Shown here one piece after another: positions 5,577 through 55,436 of a stretch of 64,000 nucleotides of DNA. How positions within the stretch are numbered: position 1 is the first letter of the stretch; each line of letters starts with the position of its first letter. Below the pieces are notes generated by a model. It was not told the origin of the DNA. It was given only the letters and a program-made list of their open reading frames with translations, and searched no databases. This stretch comes from Gemmatimonadaceae bacterium (GTDB lineage: Bacteria > Gemmatimonadota > Gemmatimonadetes > Gemmatimonadales > Gemmatimonadaceae). The stretch spans positions 124,001-188,000 of the forward strand of contig DASXUN010000030.1 in NCBI GenBank assembly GCA_036504815.1, given 5' to 3'. The position numbers were made by a program, and so were the translations under genes.

Positions 5577-5772
5577 GGAGGGACAGACGGGAGACGGGAG
5601 ACGGAAGACGGGAGACCGGGCGGTAATGGGACCGGCATTCGGCTGAGCGCCGACACCATCGACGCAAGCTAATATATTCGACCGGTCGAGTGATGCGCTC
5701 CACGCGACGGACCGCGGCCAGCCGAAGGTGGCCCTCGCGTCTTCCGTCTCCCGTCTCCCGTCTCCCGTCTGC
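5577..5772. repeat. Inverted heptamer arrays (word set B) around a divergent promoter region
   Basis: From 5584 the plus strand reads tandem 7-base words GACGGGA / GACGGAA, about five units to 5618. At 5738-5772 the complement recurs (TCCCGTC / TTCCGTC), again about five units. The arms abut the start codons of sucB (5575) and of the oxidoreductase (5778) and enclose about 120 bases with an AT-rich box and a palindrome. Both genes therefore have repeat-derived leaders with no ribosome site. Confidence 0.8.
5670..5689. promoter_or_regulatory. Divergent promoter region with 12-bp palindrome
   Basis: TAATATATT (5670-5678), the most AT-rich spot in the spacer and a possible -10 for either strand, runs into the perfect palindrome TCGACCGGTCGA (5678-5689). 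A regulator binding there could control sucB and the oxidoreductase together. No regulator is identified. Confidence 0.4.
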
Positions 5773-5777
5773 CCCTA

Positions 5778-14270: not shown

Positions 14271-15542
14271 ATGGCGCTTGATCCCCGCGAGTCGAACCAC
14301 ACGCGAGGCGGCAGTTCATCCGGCATGGCGCGAGGCGTAGCTCGCACCGTCCTCGCGGTAATTGCCCTCCTCGGAATGACGGCCGCGCTCAGCGCGCAAG
14401 GCGGCGAGAAGAGCCCGGTCGCCGAATCGGTGAAGGCCGACCTCACACGCCTCGCCGACCTCGAGCGCAGCTGGTTCGAGAAGAACCGCACGTTCACGAC
14501 CGACTTGCGGGCGCTGGCCTTCACGCCGTCGAGCGGCGCGAGCATCACCATGGCCTACGCATCGGCCCGCTCCTGGGCGGCCAATGCGACGCACCCGAGC
14601 CTGCAGCCGACGACCTGCTTCATCGTGGTCTCGCAGCCGGGCGGGGGCGGATCGGCCGACCGGCCCTTCTGTTCGGAAGCGGCGGGTGGTCAGGTAGCAG
14701 CGACGCCGGCGCGACAGCAGTTGGCGGCCCCGGCGGCGCGTCAGGAAGCCCGTCCAACGCCTCCGGCGCCACAGGCGGCGGCCCCACAGGCGACCACCGC
14801 GAAGCCGGTGGCACCGCCGCGCCGCGCCGCCCGTCGTGCGGTGGCGCCGACGGCCGCTGCGGTGCCGACGACGGTGGTTGAACTGCCGGCCCGCGCGCCC
14901 TCGAGCGGCGCGGCGCTGGCCGCGACCCGCGCCGCGGGTGGCGTGGCCGACGCGGGCGTGACGGAGGCGGTGACGCCGGCCCAGTTCACCGAGCGCCTGA
15001 ACGCGATCGTTGCGGCAGCGCTCGACATGACCAATGCGAAGATGCCGGAGGTTGCCCGGGATCCGTACGAAAGTTCGGCCGAACATCAGGCGCGCGTGGC
15101 GCAGGCGTACGCGGTGTTCCAGCGCCGCGAAGCCGAGTTCTATGCGCGCAGCACGCGCACCTACCTGGTCTCGATTCCGGTGAAGGCGGTGAAGTACGAC
15201 GCCGATCGCGAGGTCGTCGAGTTTGCCGTGGATCCGATTGCGTTGCCGACGGCGCGTTCGTTCGCGGCGGCCGACGGCGCGCGCCTGAGCGTCGCGTGCT
15301 ACACGCGTCCGTATTTCTGGTGCAGCCCGGAGGCCGGGATGTCGTACGACGGCACGGACCTCTGGCGCATCCCGCGGGCGACCGCCCGGACAGTGGACGT
15401 GCTGAACGCTCCGCTGACGCTGATGGCCCGGTTCGTGGTTGGGCGCCGCGACGATGCGCGTTCCCCGTCGGTCTCGCTGATTTCGATGGAGTTGCAGGCC
15501 AAGGGTACCGCCGTTTCGCGCTGGGACTCCGCCGCGCGCTGA
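14271..15542 (+). CDS. Exported protein with pilin-like globular segment
   Basis: A 423-residue protein with an N-terminal hydrophobic segment (residues 19-42, ending ALSAQ). Residues 50-125 (VKADLTRLADLERSWFEKN, then TFTTDLRALAF and TCFIVVSQ) look like the alpha-beta core of minor pilins or pseudopilins, without the prepilin peptidase motif in front. A 100-residue Ala/Pro-rich linker leads to a second domain (about 245-415) of unknown fold. A good ribosome site (TGGAGATC) precedes the ATG, and TTTATAG just upstream may be a -10. Function unknown. Confidence 0.6.
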   Translation: MALDPRESNHTRGGSSSGMARGVARTVLAVIALLGMTAALSAQGGEKSPVAESVKADLTRLADLERSWFEKNRTFTTDLRALAFTPSSGASITMAYASARSWAANATHPSLQPTTCFIVVSQPGGGGSADRPFCSEAAGGQVAATPARQQLAAPAARQEARPTPPAPQAAAPQATTAKPVAPPRRAARRAVAPTAAAVPTTVVELPARAPSSGAALAATRAAGGVADAGVTEAVTPAQFTERLNAIVAAALDMTNAKMPEVARDPYESSAEHQARVAQAYAVFQRREAEFYARSTRTYLVSIPVKAVKYDADREVVEFAVDPIALPTARSFAAADGARLSVACYTRPYFWCSPEAGMSYDGTDLWRIPRATARTVDVLNAPLTLMARFVVGRRDDARSPSVSLISMELQAKGTAVSRWDSAAR

Positions 15543-19169: not shown

Positions 19170-20843
19170 ATGAACGTGACGGGACGACATTTCGTTCGCG
19201 CGTTCCTCGCGCCCTCTGTTGTTACCGCGGCGTTGTGGGGCGCGACGACCGCCGCCGCGCAGCAGGCGACCGGCATGGCCCCGCCCTCCGCGCTGGAGCC
19301 GCGCGTGGAGCATTACGAGTTCGCGCTCGACCTGCCGGCGCAGGGCAAGCACATTGTCGGTGGCGCGCGGCTGACCTTCGCCGCGCCGCTGGGCGCGGAC
19401 ACCGTGCGCCTCGACCTGGACGGCGCAATGCGCGTTTCCAGCGCCTGGGTGGGATGCGCGGACGACCGGCGTGCCGCGGCCTTCGCGCATGCGGGGGCGC
19501 TGCTGAAGGTGGCCGTGCCCTCCGGCGCCGCTGAGGCGCGCTGTCTTGCCCTCGTGTACGACGGCGAGCCCGCCGACGGCCTGATCATCACCACGGATTC
19601 TGCCGGCCGCTGGGCGGCGTTCGGCGACAACTTCCCCAACCGCGCGCGCTTCTGGCTGCCCACGCAGGACCATCCGTCGCGCAAGGCCAGCGTGACGTTC
19701 ATCGTCACGGCACCCGCGGGACGATCGGTCGTGGCGAACGGTGCCCTCGTGAGCGCCGTGACGAATCCGGATTCCCGGGTGACCACGACGTGGCGCACGA
19801 CGCGGCCGATTCCGACCTACGGCATGGTCATCGCGGCGGCGCCGCTGACGGCGTTCAGCCTTGGCGAGACCGCGTGCGGCTTCGCCGAGGACGGCGGGTG
19901 CGTGCCCCAGATGGCCTGGACGGCCCCGGAGCAGGCGGTCTGGATGCCCGGCCACTTCGAGAGCGCCGGCCGCATCGTGGAGTTCTACGCGCGGACGATC
20001 GGCGCATATCCCTACGAAAAGCTCGGACACCTGCAGACGACGACGCGCTACGGCGGGATGGAAAATCCCTCCGCGATCTTCTATTACGACCGTGGATTCC
20101 GTCGGCGCGATGGCATCGCCGAGGATCTGATTGCGCACGAGACCGCGCACCAGTGGTTTGGCAACGCGGTCACCGAACGGGAGTGGGCGCATATCTGGCT
20201 GAGCGAGGGGTTTGCCACCTTCTTCGCGGCGCTCTGGGCGCAGCACGCGCACGGGGACAGCGCGTACATGGCGGAGATGGCCAGCATGCGCAGCGCCGTG
20301 CTGCGTGCCGAGGTCGTGACGCGCCGGTCGGTGATCGACAGCGTGGAAACGGATCCCAACCGCCTGCTCAACGAGAACTCGTACCCGAAGGGCGGTTTCG
20401 TGCTGCGGATGCTGCGCGATGAAGTGGGGGACAGCGCGTTTTTCGCTGGCCTGCGTCGCTACTACACCGCGCACCATCATGGCAACGCGCTGACGGCAGA
20501 CCTGCAGGCGGCCATCGAAGCCTCGGCGGGGCGCTCGCTCGGCTGGTTCTTCGATCAGTGGCTGCGGAAGCCGGGCTGGGCCGAATTGCGCACGTTGTTT
20601 GCGTGGGATTCCGAGACGCAGCGGGTCACGCTGACCGTGGAGCAGGGGGCGCGATTCGGACCGTATCGGCTGACGCTCCCCGTGGAGTTGGTGGATGCGT
20701 CGGGGGTCGTGCATCGCGAGCGGTTGGTGATCGAGGCCGTGACAAGTCAGTCGGTGACGGTGCCGGGGACGTATGCGTCGGTGCCGACGGCGGTGCGGTG
20801 TGATCCGAACTTCACCCTGCTCGCGCTATGCACGGCGAAATGA
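19170..20843 (+). CDS. M1-family zinc aminopeptidase, exported
   Basis: A 557-residue metallopeptidase of the gluzincin M1 family. The zinc site is HETAH (323-327) with the third ligand Glu346 in WLSEGFATFF; the exopeptidase motif is GGMENPSA (GxMEN). The start at 19170 is chosen because AGGAAGG lies six bases before it and the protein then begins with a signal peptide (to about AAAQQ). It probably trims N-terminal residues of peptides in the periplasm or outside. The last 16 bases overlap the next gene. Confidence 0.9.
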   Translation: MNVTGRHFVRAFLAPSVVTAALWGATTAAAQQATGMAPPSALEPRVEHYEFALDLPAQGKHIVGGARLTFAAPLGADTVRLDLDGAMRVSSAWVGCADDRRAAAFAHAGALLKVAVPSGAAEARCLALVYDGEPADGLIITTDSAGRWAAFGDNFPNRARFWLPTQDHPSRKASVTFIVTAPAGRSVVANGALVSAVTNPDSRVTTTWRTTRPIPTYGMVIAAAPLTAFSLGETACGFAEDGGCVPQMAWTAPEQAVWMPGHFESAGRIVEFYARTIGAYPYEKLGHLQTTTRYGGMENPSAIFYYDRGFRRRDGIAEDLIAHETAHQWFGNAVTEREWAHIWLSEGFATFFAALWAQHAHGDSAYMAEMASMRSAVLRAEVVTRRSVIDSVETDPNRLLNENSYPKGGFVLRMLRDEVGDSAFFAGLRRYYTAHHHGNALTADLQAAIEASAGRSLGWFFDQWLRKPGWAELRTLFAWDSETQRVTLTVEQGARFGPYRLTLPVELVDASGVVHRERLVIEAVTSQSVTVPGTYASVPTAVRCDPNFTLLALCTAK

Positions 20844-23255: not shown

Positions 23256-23945
23256 ATGGGTGTGACTCGTCTGGCGGTAGTGGCTGCGATGCTGGCGCTG
23301 AGCGTGCCGGTGTACGCGCAGCCCGGACGCTACGGTGGTGATCGCGGACGCGACGACCGTGGCAAGGATCGCGGGAATCGTTCAGAGGACCGCGACGACA
23401 AGGAACGCGGCAACCGAAGGGAGGGGCGGCGGGATGAGCCGCGGGGTGGAGGCGGCATCATTGGTCGTGTCGAGCCGCGCTATGGCGGACCCGATAACCG
23501 CGACTTTCGCCGCGACCGCCGCGATGAACCCCGTATCGCGGTGCGCACGCCCGTGTACATCGACCGCTACCCGTACCGCGAACGCGGCCCGCGGTTCGTG
23601 CCGCCGGGGCACATGCGCCGCGAGGTGTACTACCGCTACGGCGATCGTGACTGGCGCCAGCGCGAGTACGTGACGATCACGGCCTGGTTCCGGTCGTTGC
23701 CGCCCGCTCGCCTGACGGCGTACGGCTATTACGGGCCGGACTATGGTCATGTCCGTTATGCGTTCCGCCCGGGCATCTACCTGTCGATGGCCGTCTACGG
23801 GCAGCTGGGGATTCTCCCGTATGACCTCGAGGATGAGCTGGGTGAGCTGCCGTGGTATCTCGAACGCCGCATCTACGGCGACACGGTGCTCGTGATCGAC
23901 TCGAGGACAAGGCAGGTGGTGGATATCTTCGAGCTGGACGACTGA
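23256..23945 (+). CDS. Secreted Arg/Asp-rich protein
   Basis: A 229-residue protein with a signal peptide ending VPVYAQ (residue 22) and a strong ribosome site (TTGGAGGG) before the ATG. Residues 24-90 are a low-complexity run of Arg, Asp, Gly and Glu (RGRDDRGKDRGNRSEDRDD). The remainder is Tyr/Arg-rich and probably folded, ending VIDSRTRQVVDIFELDD. Charged disordered tails like this can bind polyanions, mineral or RNA, but no function is known. Its stop codon begins the set-C hairpin. Confidence 0.7.
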   Translation: MGVTRLAVVAAMLALSVPVYAQPGRYGGDRGRDDRGKDRGNRSEDRDDKERGNRREGRRDEPRGGGGIIGRVEPRYGGPDNRDFRRDRRDEPRIAVRTPVYIDRYPYRERGPRFVPPGHMRREVYYRYGDRDWRQREYVTITAWFRSLPPARLTAYGYYGPDYGHVRYAFRPGIYLSMAVYGQLGILPYDLEDELGELPWYLERRIYGDTVLVIDSRTRQVVDIFELDD

Positions 23946-24096
23946 TTGAGGATTGGGAATCCGGATTGCGATGCAGGATGACGAATGCGGATGCCGATAT
24001 GCGATCAACCCCGGGGCCACGCTGGCTCCGGGGTTGATCGTATGTCGCAGTCCGTGATCGCAATCCTGCATCGCAATCCGGATTCCCAATCCTCTA
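23944..24096. repeat. Gene-junction hairpin, word set C (copy 1), perfect 32-bp arms, stop codon to stop codon
   Basis: The 32 bases 23948-23979 are the exact reverse complement of 24063-24094. Inside is a second, terminator-like hairpin (GATCAACCCCGG near 24004 with its complement near 24030). The words GATTGCGAT, GGATTGGGAATCC recur with changes in the remaining parts. The element runs from the stop of the Arg/Asp-rich gene to the stop of dacB, filling the convergent spacer completely. The perfect arms suggest a recent or maintained structure. Confidence 0.95.
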
Positions 24097-25719
24097 TCGT
24101 TGGTAATTCGCCAGCGTCGCTCCCATCGCATCCATCGCTGCCTTCGCGCGCCAGCGATCGCGGCCGTTGTAGATGAACGAAAAAGCGAGGCGCTCGCCGT
24201 CGCGCGAGGTGACGTAGCCACCGAGGGAGGCGACGTCGTTGGTGGTGCCGGTCTTCGCATGAAGGTTGCCCATCGCCGGCGTGTACTTCATGCGGCGCCG
24301 CAGGGTCTCGGTGCGGCCGGCGACGGGCAGCGACTGCTCCAGCACATCGCGCCATGGCGCGCGGGCGGCGTAGCCCAGCAGCTGCACCATCGACCGCGGC
24401 GTGACGCGATCGGCCGTGGACAGGCCGCTGCCGTCCGCCGCGTACACGTCGGTGGGCGGCACCTGCGCCTTCTCCCACAGGAACCGGCGCAGCAGGATGT
24501 TGGAATTCTCCGCCGAACCCACCACGCCGACGCTGCGTGCGGCGTTGCGGAACAGGAGCTCGGCAAAGTGATTGTTGGACTCGCCGTTCATCGTCGTGAT
24601 GAGTTCGCCGAGCGGCGCGGAGGGAAGCGCCGTGACGCGCGGCACGCCGCTGCCGGCGCGGCCGAGCCGGACCGGGCCGCCCACGCTGATGCCCTGCGCC
24701 TCGAGCGCGGCGCGGAACGCAGCCGTCGTGATGAGGGCCGGATGCTCCGCGACGACCTGCACGCTCCGGCCCTTGCCGCCGCCGCCCACCGACCCGCGCA
24801 CTTCGATGCCATTCTCGCGCTGCACGATGCCGATGCGCGCGCCGCGCCCCGCGACGACGCGCACCGCGTTGACGATGGTGATGCCCGACAATGCCGGCTC
24901 GAACGTGATGGCGGCGCTCTTGCCGGCCGGCTTCACCGTCACCTTCAGCAGGTTCTCGCTGTAGGAGAGCGCCGAGACGCGGGCGGCATACGAGGCGCCA
25001 AGGTAGCGTGACCGCCACCCTTCCGGCACGCCGCGATCCTCGAACGCGGAGGCATCCCCGATGACATCGCCCGAAACACGGCGCACGCCGGCTTCGGCGA
25101 CGAGCCGCGCCATGGCGGCCATCGGCGTCTCGCCGGAGGCGCCGTCCGAGAAGCGCCGGCTGAACGACGGGTCGCCCGCGCCGCGCAGCACCAGGTTGCC
25201 GCGCACCGTGCCATCGCCGCCGAGCGCGCCTTCGCGGAGGACCTCGGTGACGAACCGATAGTTGGCGCCGAAGCGCTCGAGCGCGACCGCGGCGGTGAAG
25301 AGCTTCATCGTGCTGGCCGGCAGCAGCTGCCGGTCGGCGTTGCGCGTGAAGAGCGTGTCGCCGTTGTCGAGCGAAAGGACGGCCACGCCCCAGGCGCCGC
25401 TGCGCGACGCACGGTCCAGGATGTTGTCGAGGTCGATGACGAGCTGCGAACCACCGCGCGGGGCGGTGAAGGTGATCGGCGCCGGCGCGGACACGCGCTT
25501 CTTGGCCGCGGTGCGGACCTTGGCCGGCGTGCGACCCGCGACGCGACGGTGCTTCGACGCGGTCCGGCGCTTGTTCGTCCCCCCGGTCTTCCCCGTCGCG
25601 GCGCGCACCGACGCCACGGCCGGATTGGCCTGGGCCGGGAGCTGCGGAATGGCGACCGCCAGCACAACGGCGGCGGCACACCACTGGAAGATCCCACGGT
25701 GGCGGAGCAGGGAGGGCAT
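24094..25719 (-). CDS. dacB: D-alanyl-D-alanine carboxypeptidase/endopeptidase, PBP4 (S13) type
   Basis: A 541-residue periplasmic peptidoglycan hydrolase. The S13 active-site motifs are present in order: Ser136-x-x-Lys in PASTMKLF, SxN as SEN in YSENLLKV, and KTG in HAKTGTTND. A signal-peptide-like segment precedes a basic linker (about residues 44-75: repeated Lys/Arg/Ala/Thr), which is unusual and may bind the anionic wall or lipid. The large insertion between the first two motifs is typical of the family. Presumably trims or cleaves peptide crosslinks. Confidence 0.93.
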   Translation of the reverse strand: MPSLLRHRGIFQWCAAAVVLAVAIPQLPAQANPAVASVRAATGKTGGTNKRRTASKHRRVAGRTPAKVRTAAKKRVSAPAPITFTAPRGGSQLVIDLDNILDRASRSGAWGVAVLSLDNGDTLFTRNADRQLLPASTMKLFTAAVALERFGANYRFVTEVLREGALGGDGTVRGNLVLRGAGDPSFSRRFSDGASGETPMAAMARLVAEAGVRRVSGDVIGDASAFEDRGVPEGWRSRYLGASYAARVSALSYSENLLKVTVKPAGKSAAITFEPALSGITIVNAVRVVAGRGARIGIVQRENGIEVRGSVGGGGKGRSVQVVAEHPALITTAAFRAALEAQGISVGGPVRLGRAGSGVPRVTALPSAPLGELITTMNGESNNHFAELLFRNAARSVGVVGSAENSNILLRRFLWEKAQVPPTDVYAADGSGLSTADRVTPRSMVQLLGYAARAPWRDVLEQSLPVAGRTETLRRRMKYTPAMGNLHAKTGTTNDVASLGGYVTSRDGERLAFSFIYNGRDRWRAKAAMDAMGATLANYQR

Positions 25720-26940: not shown

Positions 26941-27084
26941 GTGGGGAAGGCTCAATTGGGGTGCAAGGGCACGGGCACGGTGGGGTGCAAGGGCACGGGC
27001 ACGGTGGGGTGCAAGGGCACGGGCACAGTGGGGTGCAAGGGCACGGGCACAGTGGGGTGCAAGGGAATGGGGGGAGGCGGAATG
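26941..27084. repeat. G-rich 24-bp tandem repeat, left arm of word set D
   Basis: A 24-base unit containing GTGCAAGGGCACGGGCAC restarts at 26961, 26985, 27009, 27033 and 27057 with almost no change, then decays into GGGAATGGGGGGAGG. The plus strand has many G3-G4 runs and could form G-quadruplexes. An inverted, more degenerate copy lies at 27566-27637, so the four-helix gene sits between the arms. The repeat is a multiple of three and gives an open frame, but it has no gene around it, so I do not call it coding. Confidence 0.9.
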
Positions 27085-27127
27085 CATTGGTGCAGCGACC
27101 GATGCTTCCTGCCAATAGGCTGCCGAC

Positions 27128-27565
27128 ATGGACTCCGTCGTCGAGCAGGCCCTCGCCAAGTGGTCGCAAGGAATCGGTCCGGACGAGACTGCCGATCCCA
27201 TCTGGAATCTGTTGGCGTATCGCATCGCCCGGTGCCTGGTCGATCACGCACAAGCGGACGGGGTGTTGCTGGTCGCGCACGTGGATCCCAAGACGATCGG
27301 CCAGCTCTCGCGCGCGGTCGGCTCCATCGCCGCGAATGTCGCCGAGGGGTACAGTCGCCGATCTGCGGCCGACCGCTCGCGTTTCTACGGCTATGCACTC
27401 GGATCGTCGCGGGAAACGACGGTCTGGTACCGCTCAGTAGCCTGGTGCATGGAGCCGACGGACCTGGCCTTGCGGATGGCCTTCCTCACGCAGGAGAGGC
27501 GGCTGCTCGTGGGGATGCTCAAGTCGGTGCAACGCCACGGCGGTCCAACGTTCGAGCCCGGCTGA
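27128..27565 (+). CDS. Four-helix-bundle protein, 23S rRNA intervening-sequence (S23/IVP) family
   Basis: A 145-residue protein with the diagnostic stretch QLSRAVGSIAANVAEGYSRR, followed by FYGYALGSSRETTVWY, which matches the 23S-IVP / four-helix-bundle family. Relatives are encoded inside spacer insertions of 23S rRNA in Leptospira and Coxiella, and the Avd protein of diversity-generating retroelements shares the fold; both are linked to nucleic-acid binding. Here there is no rRNA or reverse transcriptase nearby. The gene is alone on its strand, bracketed by inverted G-rich repeats. The ribosome site is weak. Role unknown. Confidence 0.85.
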   Translation: MDSVVEQALAKWSQGIGPDETADPIWNLLAYRIARCLVDHAQADGVLLVAHVDPKTIGQLSRAVGSIAANVAEGYSRRSAADRSRFYGYALGSSRETTVWYRSVAWCMEPTDLALRMAFLTQERRLLVGMLKSVQRHGGPTFEPG

Positions 27566-27637
27566 TCCCCCCCCTCTCCCTGCACTCCACTGTGTCCGTG
27601 CACCCCACCGTGCCCGTGCCTGTGCACCAAGTGCAAT
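27566..27637. repeat. Right arm of word set D (inverted copy)
   Basis: Begins directly after the four-helix gene's stop. The segment 27598-27625 reads as the reverse complement of the left-arm unit (GCACCCCACCGTGCCCGTGC), with about 24 of 27 matches over the best stretch, flanked by degenerate C-rich copies. The rest of 27638-27683 shows no gene. Confidence 0.8.
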
Positions 27638-27683
27638 GGGGCAGCCACCCGGCCGCCCCATCGTCTTGCGTACAACCAGATCC

Positions 27684-32131: not shown

Positions 32132-32506
32132 TTACTCAGGGGCGAGTGTGATGTCCACCGCGTGCTCGACTTTCACTTTCTTCTGCGCGAAGTCGATGAG
32201 CTGGCGGATATTGGCGACCGCCTCGCGATAGGAGCGAAGCTTCACCTGGTCGCCACCGCCGCGTCCGCCGATGAGGAGCATCGCCGAGACCTGATCGGCG
32301 ATCATGCCGAACTGCCCCTTGAGCTGTCCCTGAAGGGGCATGGCGATCCGCTTCAGTTGCATCGGAAAGACACCCATCGGCTTGCCCGCCTTCATCTCCA
32401 TGGCTGCCCGCTCGACCATGCTGTGGATCTGCGAAACGGTCATCAGCGCCTCTTCCAGCGTCTTCATCTTCTGCGCGCCGGCGCCATCGAGTTTTGTGCT
32501 GGCCAT
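32132..32506 (-). CDS. Conserved small helical protein, unknown function
   Basis: A 124-residue cytoplasmic protein, all helical by eye, with MASTKLDGAGAQKMKTLEEA at the start and a glycine loop LLIGGRGGGDQVKLRSYREA near residue 90. The pattern suggests a long helical hairpin or bundle; no catalytic residues. I take the ATG at 32506; a longer frame runs through the set-E repeat and is not plausible. Its leader is made of the repeat. Not recognised. Confidence 0.6.
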   Translation of the reverse strand: MASTKLDGAGAQKMKTLEEALMTVSQIHSMVERAAMEMKAGKPMGVFPMQLKRIAMPLQGQLKGQFGMIADQVSAMLLIGGRGGGDQVKLRSYREAVANIRQLIDFAQKKVKVEHAVDITLAPE

Positions 32507-32525
32507 GGGGTAATCACCGAATGAG

Positions 32526-32678
32526 GCGGAGAACCACAGAGTACGACAGAGTACGACAGAGTACGACAGTTGAATACTACCACGGCGGAGGGACCCGCGC
32601 GTCAGCTGACCTCCCTCCTGCTCCACGGTCATTCTCTGTCTTACTCTGTCGTACTCTGTGGTACTCTGTCGTACTCTG
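32526..32678. repeat. Gene-junction hairpin, word set E (copy 1)
   Basis: Three perfect 10-base units ACAGAGTACG and a part fourth lie at 32536-32569; the complement (CTCTGTCGTA) is repeated four and a half times at 32634-32678 with single changes. The 64-base middle has its own GGAGGG/CCCTCC hairpin. It spans the spacer between aspA and the downstream small gene, both on the minus strand, and reaches to within four bases of the aspA stop. Confidence 0.88.
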
Positions 32679-32681
32679 CCC

Positions 32682-34526: not shown

Positions 34527-34540
34527 GGATCCTGAACGAT

Positions 34541-34707
34541 TGAGGATCGGGAATCCGGATTTCGACCTATGAAAGGGAAATCGGACGGCGATTTGCGATG
34601 CATTAATTGTGGCGTTCGGACAGACGCAGGGACAGGTGCGCCGCACTCCGACGAATCGCCAGTCGCCGTCCCGGCTCGCCGTCCTCAATCCCTATCCGGA
34701 TGCCAGA
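34541..34707. repeat. Word set C (copy 2), divergent promoter region of aspA
   Basis: At 34541-34563 the plus strand reads almost the same as copy 1 of set C (GATTGAGGATCGGGAATCC), and related words CGATTTGCGATGC and CCTCAATCC...ATCCGGAT recur at 34590-34605 and 34680-34707. The order in the right part is not a simple reverse complement, so a full hairpin is less certain. The spacer also holds the promoters of aspA and the asparaginase, not otherwise visible. Confidence 0.65.
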
Positions 34708-34752
34708 TCGTCAGTCAAATTCTCACGACCCTCGCTGCCACCGAGCCCATCG

Positions 34753-36977: not shown

Positions 36978-39476
<2,499 letters not shown>

Positions 39477-39479
39477 AAG

Positions 39480-39612
39480 GTGATGGCGGATGGCAGATGA
39501 CGGATGGCAGATGACGGATGGCAGATGGCGGATGGCAGACGGCCGACGGCGTGCAAGCTCACGCGGTCGGCCGTGTAGTATCCGCCATCAGCCCTCTGCC
39601 ATCCGCCATCAC
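39480..39612. repeat. Gene-junction hairpin, word set F, between leuS and the cysteine-synthase-like gene
   Basis: The left arm (39480-39549) repeats GATGGCGGATGGCAGATGACG words; its first 18 bases are the exact complement of 39595-39612, and GGCCGAC pairs with GTCGGCC near the loop. The right arm is shorter (39564-39612), so the repeat is imperfect in the middle. It fills almost the whole convergent spacer; about 16 bases remain before the right-hand stop codon. Confidence 0.85.
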
Positions 39613-39628
39613 TTGCTCTTACGCCGAT

Positions 39629-40972: not shown

Positions 40973-42154
40973 ATGCGCCGTACCCTCCTGTTTCTGAGTT
41001 CCCTCCTGCTTGCGGCGCCTTTGCCGGCGCAGCAGGACGTGCGCGTCACCACCAAGAGCGACCGCGATGCGGTGCAGGTCGCACGCAGTGAAGCACGCAG
41101 TGACGCACGCAGTGAGCGCGCGATGATTGGCGTGTCCACGTCATCCGGCAGCAAGCGCGATACGCTTGGCGTCCTGGTCTCGTCGGTCACCGAAGGCGGA
41201 CCGGCGGAGAAGGCCGGACTGGGCGAGGGCGATCGCATCCAGGCCATCAACGGCGTGTCGCTGCGCGTGAATCGCGAGGACGCCGGTGATGACGAGATGG
41301 GCGGCATCATGCAGCGCCGCCTCACGCGCGAGCTCGGCAAGGCCAAGGTCGGCGACGAAGTCACGCTGCAGGTCTGGCACGACGGCGTCAGCAAGACGTA
41401 CAAGGTGAAGACCGTCGCCGCCGACGACCTCTACAAGCCGGCCAAGGCCGTGGTGAGCCGCGAGGAGCGCGCCGTGATCGGGCTCGGCTTCGGCCTGACC
41501 GGCAGCAAGCGCGACACGGCCGGCGTCTTCGTGAACTCCGTCACGGAGGACGGCCCGGCGGAGAAGGCCGGCATCGTGGAGGGCGACCGGATTGCCGCGA
41601 TCAACGGCGTCTCGCTCAAGCTGTCGAAGGATGACCTCGACGACATGTGGGTCGCGAACTCCCGGATCAACCGCCTGTCGCGCGAGGTGGCCAAGGCGAA
41701 GGCCGGGGACGTCGTGGAACTGACCGTGGTGTCGGGCGGACGTGCGCGCGCGGTGAAGGTGACGACGGTCAAGGCGTCGGCGCTCAAGAAGGACGGCGCG
41801 CCGGGGTTCATGTACTTCCGCTCGCCGGATGGGGCGATGGCACCGATGGCGCCGATGGCCTTCACCTTCCCGGCGCCGCCGAAGACCCCGGCGCCGCCGC
41901 GTGCCCCGTTGATCCGGCACTACGATGATGCAGGCACCGACGCGGCAGTGCGCATGCATCTCGAGGCGGCGCGCCAGGAGATGCAGCACGTGATGGAAAC
42001 CGAGATGCCGCGCGTCCGCGAGCAGATTGAGCGCGTCATGAAGACCGAGATGCCGCGCGTGCGGCTGGAGACGCAGAAGGCGCTGGATGAGGCGCGCCAG
42101 GAGCTGCAGGCGGCGCGGGTGAACCTGCGGGGATCGCGAATCGTTAGAATCTGA
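40973..42154 (+). CDS. Exported protein with two tandem PDZ domains
   Basis: A 393-residue protein with a signal peptide ending PLPAQ. Two PDZ-like domains, residues about 48-148 and 155-255, are recognisable duplicates (SKRDTLGVLVSSVTEGGPAEK against SKRDTAGVFVNSVTEDGPAEK). The C-terminus is coiled-coil-like with a short repeat (METEMPRVREQIERV / MKTEMPRVRLETQ). No protease domain is fused. It could be an adaptor or chaperone-like periplasmic protein. The first ATG giving a signal peptide is used. Convergent with the M14 gene. Confidence 0.8.
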   Translation: MRRTLLFLSSLLLAAPLPAQQDVRVTTKSDRDAVQVARSEARSDARSERAMIGVSTSSGSKRDTLGVLVSSVTEGGPAEKAGLGEGDRIQAINGVSLRVNREDAGDDEMGGIMQRRLTRELGKAKVGDEVTLQVWHDGVSKTYKVKTVAADDLYKPAKAVVSREERAVIGLGFGLTGSKRDTAGVFVNSVTEDGPAEKAGIVEGDRIAAINGVSLKLSKDDLDDMWVANSRINRLSREVAKAKAGDVVELTVVSGGRARAVKVTTVKASALKKDGAPGFMYFRSPDGAMAPMAPMAFTFPAPPKTPAPPRAPLIRHYDDAGTDAAVRMHLEAARQEMQHVMETEMPRVREQIERVMKTEMPRVRLETQKALDEARQELQAARVNLRGSRIVRI

Positions 42155-42280
42155 AGACGACAGAGTACGACAGAGTACGACAGAGTACGACAGAGTACGA
42201 CAGAGTGCGGCAGCGAAGGCCAACGCGCCTTGCTGCCGCACTCTGTCGTACTCTGTCGTATTCTGTCGTATTCCGTCCTT
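42154..42280. repeat. Gene-junction hairpin, word set E (copy 2), stop codon to stop codon
   Basis: The left arm (42154-42213) has four ACAGAGTACG units and a variant GTGCGGCAG; the right arm (42233-42280) is its complement with a few changes (GTCGTATTCTG). The loop has its own AAGGC/GCCTT hairpin. The arms begin in the TGA of the PDZ gene and end in the TAA of the M14 gene, filling the convergent spacer. Confidence 0.92.
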
Positions 42281-55317: not shown

Positions 55318-55436
55318 TGGGAGAGAGGGGTGCGGGGTGCGGGGGTGGTGCAGGGTGCAGGGAACAGGGTGTGGTGCGGGGTACGGAGTGCGGGGGGTGG
55401 TGCGGGGTGCAGGGTACAGGGGGTGAATTGTACCCC
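55318..55436. repeat. G-rich degenerate repeat, single arm (word set D-like)
   Basis: The plus strand is a string of GGTGCGGGGTGC, GGTGCAGGGTGCAGGG and GGGTACAGGGG words with many G3-G6 runs and no complementary arm. It closes with the small dyad GGGTACAGGGGG...GTACCCCC (near 55412-55436). It fills the spacer between the receptor and the HD gene. It has strong G-quadruplex potential on the strand that is the transcribed template. Confidence 0.8.

Follow-up and report, generated by a model that had tools for sequence, protein, structure and literature searches.

Introduction

Intervening sequences (IVSs) that encode an S23/IVP protein are found in the 23S rRNA genes of Leptospira and Coxiella. 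To our knowledge, no function has been established for S23/IVP proteins in the decades since their discovery in these IVSs, and we likewise know of no explanation for the spread of heptamer repeats in cyanobacteria and xanthomonads. The origin of IVSs has been called unclear, and the Coxiella IVS has inverted termini and three tandem GACAGAT heptamers 5′ of its S23 ORF (PMC4990558). IVP genes have also been reported from CPR bacteria, within rRNA insertions (PMC11270868), and from cas loci, e.g., between cmr3 and cmr2 (PMC3936711). Described heptamers include GGGAATC in Xanthomonas and GGGGA(T/C)T in Nostoc (PMC4692102; some 70 inverted pairs in each Xanthomonas genome, as a rule unconnected with mobile elements) and the GGGACCG elements of Geobacter metallireducens (PMC2700814); neither of these two papers links the repeats to a protein.

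Here we analyze a 64,000-nt stretch (hereafter, the window; contig C30, positions 124001–188000) from a Gemmatimonadaceae genome of 3.5 Mb in 31 contigs (G000), which contains an S23 gene between inverted tandem arrays. Like a 23S rRNA IVS, this cassette holds an S23 ORF within terminal inverted repeats; unlike one, it lies outside any 23S rRNA gene, its arrays are long and tandem, the unit differs from gene to gene, and gene-free relatives are dispersed through the genome. Its protein is also under purifying selection, whereas the S23p of Coxiella is reported to be decaying. REPIN/RAYT systems (compare PMC3116915 and PMC8049555) share about one gene per family, a gene flanked by the repeat, dispersed elements built as inverted pairs, and mostly vertical inheritance of the gene. 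However, the RAYT is a Y1 (HuH) transposase, which is absent from G000, while S23 is a small four-helix bundle without a known catalytic site, and the arms here are short tandem arrays. Cyanobacterial STRR/heptamer repeats likewise form intergenic arrays of short, G-rich units in tandem, often as inverted pairs, and a period of 7 is the commonest among the S23 loci surveyed below, although the unit in the window measures 24 nt. The Avd protein of diversity-generating retroelements is a four-helix bundle related to PF05635 (PMC10053308), but such a retroelement would include a reverse transcriptase, and G000 has none of the RVT_1 type. As for a classical IS or MITE, the cassette contains no second gene and no duplication was seen at the Nostoc/Calothrix site described below; our transposase search in the rest of the genome covered PF01797 only.

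Results

An S23 gene enclosed by inverted G-rich arrays

A first-pass annotation made from the letters of this DNA alone had described inverted G-rich arrays bracketing a single gene; the arrangement is real, and the positions then given are right to about 20 nt. The left arm (26957–27065, + strand) comprises 4.5 copies of the 24-nt G-rich unit TGGGGTGCAAGGGCACGGGCACAG (98% matches, TRF score 204), the single gene between the arms (27128–27565, +) encodes a 145-aa S23/23S_rRNA_IVP protein of group F, a probable four-helix bundle (AEGYSRRSAADRSRFYGYALGS), and the right arm (27569–27628, −), 3 nt past the stop codon, consists of decayed inverted copies of the same unit. The best inverted pairing joins 27008–27074 with 27569–27628 at a score of 35 (≤17 in shuffles), a repeat search returned 37-nt arms with 86–89% complementarity at a spacing of about 550–600 nt, and the RNA from arm to arm has a folding z-score of −7.1 relative to 20 dinucleotide shuffles. 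In a chance control based on 625 pseudo-genes slid along the window, a score of 20 was reached at few positions only, i.e., at the cassette itself, at one spot between two neighboring hairpins, and in one cluster at 15000. Directly beyond the right arm, the sequence contains a G+C-rich stem (27638–27659) that is probably the terminator of the cox operon; a similar stem is also present at the gene-free orthologous sites of three relatives (G002, G003, and G007). Elsewhere in the window, TRF detected a tandem array resembling the cassette's own unit (GGGGTGCAGGGTACAGGGGGTGGTGC; 55327–55425, +), the pairing of which is unconfirmed.

The cassette is flanked by a membrane-protein gene on one side and coxIV on the other, and an Rfam scan of positions 20000–45000 returned no match of any kind, from which we conclude that it is not an rRNA IVS. 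The earlier suggestion of a free-standing, IVS-like cassette thus holds.

The window protein belongs to the S23/23S_rRNA_IVP family by profile matches above curated cut-offs, both for PF05635 (E = 9e-12, 45.6 bits, cut-off 33.8) and for TIGR02436, "four helix bundle protein" (E = 6e-14, 52.1 bits, cut-off 24). Its AF2 model is all-helical with moderate confidence (mean pLDDT 71). The top PDB match of this model in Foldseek was 2GSC (TM 0.47–0.58), with 2RLD also found and no E-value below 0.001, while the family profile search picked up 2GSC at 5e-40; 2GSC (Xcc0516) and 2RLD are the nearest solved relatives. Among genus orthologs, dN/dS of the gene ranges from 0.05 to 0.21: the protein is under purifying selection, and is therefore kept for a function. 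Profile searches of G000 detected neither an RVT_1 reverse transcriptase (PF00078) nor a Y1 (HuH) RAYT-type transposase (PF01797), the latter being present in 2 of 11 genus genomes. RAYT-driven REPs and reverse-transcriptase-driven retromobility were dropped as candidates for G000 on these grounds.

S23 genes and their arms within the genus

Seven PF05635 genes were identified in G000, six of which lie inside or beside inverted tandem arrays whose unit differs for each gene: AGAGARACAAC, GAGTACGACA, GATGGCG, AGGATTTGGAATCCGG..., GGAACGGGGAGG..., and the 24-mer of the window. One of these, the group E gene (GGAACGGGGAGG), has hairpins on its flanks rather than a clean enclosure, which counts against the reading that we favor below. 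The seventh gene (L007) is without arms, and its ANIAEG motif has been lost; the same double loss is seen in five relatives (L173, L178, L184, L186, and L198), while L020 and L021, which occupy the syntenic locus, retain both motif and arms. This motif-less, armless set (group G) is a natural negative control. Across the genus, inverted arms with a score of at least 22 were found for 42 of 52 S23 genes. For the S23 loci of the relatives, the same score was reached by 25 of 29, although two of these (L019 and L026) resemble coding noise. The family was found in 37 of the 41 genomes searched (G000 and its relatives), and named Gemmatimonadetes and Gemmatimonadaceae MAGs occur among the S23 relatives. 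Within the genus, those cassettes that were tested have kept their positions.

Bracketing across bacterial phyla

Next, we evaluated a panel of S23 loci drawn from 80 named genomes that span many phyla and include one archaeon; 79 S23 genes were testable. The search alignment was built from eight closer proteins, all 24 being too diverse, and the panel was collected through a conserved motif and is thus biased toward S23 genes that retain it. Inverted arms with a score of at least 20 bracketed 56 of the 79 loci (71%), compared to 29 of 5,837 control windows taken at these loci (0.5%; odds ratio about 490), and 61 of 79 loci outscored all of their own control windows. The commonest arm period was 7 (30 of 62 cassettes), followed by 14, 8, 16, and 21, with 51 of 62 cassettes scoring best at a period of 7, 14, or 8, and G exceeded C in the left arm of 59 of 62. 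The arms of one S23 gene from Planctomycetota (L057) are exceptionally long, with an inverted-repeat score of 177. On plasmids, S23 genes are rare (25 of 72,556 records, mainly cyanobacterial); arms were present in four of the five inspected, and the fifth, in a conjugation operon of a Trichormus plasmid, has none, which counts against our preferred reading. A search for S23 on phages found none.

Overall, S23 genes are usually bracketed by inverted tandem arrays, across phyla. The idea, raised from the window alone, that other S23 genes sit within repeats is borne out by five of the six others in G000 (enclosed or adjacent) and by the genus and panel fractions above (42/52 and 56/79). The first-pass annotation had also held that S23 genes without flanking repeats would refute a cassette; such genes do exist, mainly the degenerate group lacking ANIAEG and one copy in a plasmid operon.

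Gene-free hairpins dispersed through the genome

Gene-free relatives of the arms, considered as a possibility in the first-pass annotation, are indeed dispersed through G000, as estimated from sampled stretches and genome-wide pattern counts. The window unit, whose recurrence beyond the window was not known to that annotation, has 40 scattered pattern matches in this genome (1 for a reversed-pattern control), GAGTACGACA (family B) has 112–168, and AGAGARACAAC (family A) has 217–253, the last being a near-palindromic pattern with a high reversed control of 178. A census of 450 kb recovered hairpin families corresponding to five of the six cassette units; the same census contained three families for which no cassette is known (CACGGAG, AACACAG, and AGACGGG), which counts against our preferred reading. 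In 1.12 Mb from G000 and 10 genus genomes, arrays of cassette k-mers numbered 236, versus 3 with reversed k-mers, and paired neighboring arrays in this DNA were oriented inward in 48 cases, outward in none, and in the same direction in 22, i.e., the G-rich arms of dispersed hairpins are directed inward.

Within the window, the hairpin census identified empty hairpins of family A (AGAGARACAAC) at 866–985 and 1820–1937, with the cognate cassette L001 elsewhere in G000; of family D (GATTGAGGATTGGGAATCCGGATTGCGAT, cognate L004) at 23944–24098 and 34538–34716; of family B (GAGTACGACA, cognate L002) at 32525–32680 and 42153–42277; and of family C (GATGGCR, cognate L003) at 39475–39617. The hairpin at 5579–5776, with the unit AGACGGG, has no cognate in G000 but fits the group C cassette of a related genome (G001), and is possibly what remains of a cassette that was lost or altered. 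A further conserved family, TTCTTCACCACGGAGACACGGAG...GGCCACGGAG, was observed at L117:5843–6012, L118:10972–11157, L123:3199–3388, and L131:14947–15137, as well as at the G002 site orthologous to window position 39475; no S23 cassette was found for it in G000. Several contigs of G000 end in tandem arrays (C5:10–59, C10:29–50, and C15:76–97), which break the assembly and may hide cassettes.

Cassettes and dispersed repeats change units together

Group A cassettes occupy one syntenic locus in the genomes compared, so that the unit of the cassette can be set against the repeats elsewhere in the same genome. The cassette unit is AGAGARACAAC in G000, G005, G006, and G008, with 217–253, 309, 90, and 193 matches, respectively, while G002, G003, G007, and G009, in which no group A gene was found, have 0, 2, 0, and 2. 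In G001 and G004, the group A unit is GCAGAGARAAA, which has 128 and 26 matches there and none in nine other genus genomes. Two cases count against this pairing: G010 has 193 family A matches with no group A S23 gene detected, in a genome that is 85% complete, and GAGTACGACA has 20 matches in G002 although the group B cassette of that genome has a different unit (0–3 matches in genus genomes besides G000 and G002). Dispersed repeats in the genus thus largely follow the cassette, with copies of a new unit found only where the cassette unit changed.

The same pattern was recovered from individual hairpins and from distant genomes. By shared 9-mers, the cassette of the own genome was the best match for 31 of 71 hairpins, compared to 14.5 ± 2.6 in permuted data (maximum 26 in 5,000 permutations). 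This test, with its larger sample, replaced an earlier comparison by raw local-alignment scores, which was affected by arm-length bias and gave no signal (5 of 21 versus 4.3 expected). The unit of a Phormidium cassette has 108 matches in its own genome and 0–2 in nine others, and 15 of 46 panel cassettes have an arm copy in their own flanks that outscores 14 other loci, where 3 would be expected. Across phyla, protein similarity and unit similarity are correlated weakly but clearly (Spearman 0.15, reached in 0 of 500 permutations). Beyond the first-pass annotation, then, units are specific to individual cassettes, and a cassette changes in step with its dispersed repeats.

Within single cassettes, the two arms are more alike than are ortholog arms across genomes for groups A, B, C, D, and F, which we take, from sequence comparison, as concerted change; in group E, the arms of one cassette show no such excess of similarity, which counts against our preferred reading. 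Homogenized arms are also what local quasipalindrome correction and strand slippage alone, with template switching between the arms and no role for S23, would produce. Since this leaves the same unit at many unlinked sites, the change in trans, and the 71% association with one gene family all unexplained, we consider it barely tenable.

A more serious alternative is that S23 is a passenger, a hitchhiker with a safe site in the loop of a single hairpin of each family, and that an unknown host or IS system moves the hairpins. It would accommodate a cassette without a catalytic gene, the fixed loci of the genus cassettes, the hairpin families for which no S23 gene was found, and the retention of the family A repeat in G010 with its group A gene undetected. 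It does not account for purifying selection on S23, for there being about one S23 gene per hairpin family, or for the match between protein and unit across phyla, and it fits poorly with the joint loss of motif and arms in group G and the joint change of units in cassette and genome; moreover, G000 has no Y1/RAYT transposase or RVT_1 to serve as the mover. We regard a passenger role as unlikely, without dismissing it.

Occupied, solo, and empty sites

The cassette at the window site is present in G000, G005, G010, G001, and G006 and inverted in G004, reduced to a short solo hairpin with the gene gone in G003 and G007, and absent from G002 and G009, so that the empty sites anticipated in relatives exist. 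A second case is the nrdB–nrdA spacer of plasmid pNe_5 of Nostoc edaphicum, which contains an S23 cassette bounded by TAGGGAG arrays, compared to a plain spacer at the counterpart site of Calothrix sp. NIES-4105, with flanks 85% identical; the two differ by the replacement of about a dozen bases, and no target-site duplication was seen, which counts against our preferred reading. A whole cassette can therefore be present or absent at a site, with the arms as its limits. Separately, plasmids 1 and 2 of Calothrix brevissima NIES-22 contain the same S23 cassette with AGGGTGT arms (L224 and L225); cassette-level transposition was rejected for this pair, as the neighboring genes, including an integrase, are common to both plasmids.

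Dispersed hairpins are similarly variable. At four such sites, species have different hairpin families at one intergenic spot, or none, and these sites often center on a site-specific G+C-rich stem. At the site at 39475, the unit in G000, G004, G010, and G001 resembles the group C cassette of each genome. In G006, the site orthologous to window position 32505 has a left half similar to the family A unit and a right half similar to the G006 group F unit, as if the arms had been gained separately. The sites orthologous to 42153 in G004, G005, G009, and G010 show a C/T-rich array behind a terminator-like stem that is rich in G+C, i.e., a half element abutting a terminator.

Hairpins that surround a G+C-rich stem beside stop codons, as they often do, and that share intergenic spots between species could instead be domesticated terminators or mRNA 3′ ends, with S23 as a host-serving RNA-binding regulator that controls its own expression through its own arms; purifying selection on the protein would suit this as well. 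Yet hairpin families swap or are missing at orthologous sites, units change fast between sister species, which would be odd for a host regulon, and the family is patchy, with members on plasmids and in rRNA. Such a regulatory role appears improbable to us, more so than a passenger role.

Discussion

Taken together, these data make it likely, in our judgment, that the window contains the coding ("master") copy of a dispersed family of inverted tandem repeats. Action of S23 in trans on this family is inferred from correlation only; our preference for it rests on the conservation of the gene and on its pairing with its unit, which is seen across phyla. Against it, the cassettes of the genus are inherited at fixed loci, hence moves of whole cassettes are rare.

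As we envision it, the element would consist of a G-rich short tandem array, an S23 gene, and an inverted array, with nothing else inside. The S23 protein would recognize the arm unit in RNA or DNA, either folded or single-stranded, an inference for which there are no binding data, and would act in trans. As a result, hairpin sites such as terminators would receive copies of arrays, or have their arrays extended or rewritten. Because the cassette has no nuclease, transposase, or reverse transcriptase, we propose that the polymerase would be that of the host, through replication, repair, or transcription-coupled template switching. Landing would then be tolerated at hairpins near terminators and rRNA helices, and a 23S rRNA IVS would arise by insertion of this same element into an rRNA helix. 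Under this model, a 23S rRNA IVS is probably an S23 element in its rRNA-inserted form, and the IVP genes of cas loci could reflect inserted S23 cassettes and not a CRISPR role. A broader proposal, i.e., that S23 proteins are widespread trans factors that spread or rewrite their own hairpins without a transposase or reverse transcriptase, and that cyanobacterial heptamers and 23S IVSs are both products of this activity, is in our view evenly poised between right and wrong. If the link between S23 and heptamers holds, xcc0516, which encodes the S23 protein of PDB entry 2GSC, is predicted to lie between GGGAATC arrays.

In the open literature, i.e., with subscription journals and most preprints outside our scope, we found no report tying S23 genes to dispersed tandem hairpins. 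In our best reading, every S23 gene serves as the coding copy for one family of hairpin repeats, which its protein, by inference, spreads or rewrites in trans, much as in REPIN/RAYT but without relation to it. Such a repeat system would appear to move without a known mobility enzyme (transposases other than PF01797 being outside our search). A protein family and a class of repeats are here joined by their co-occurrence, unit by unit. This provides a testable function for the S23 family, present in many phyla, and a plausible origin for rRNA intervening sequences, with the S23 gene looking like the keeper of its own mobile-repeat family, insofar as its inferred role in trans is correct.
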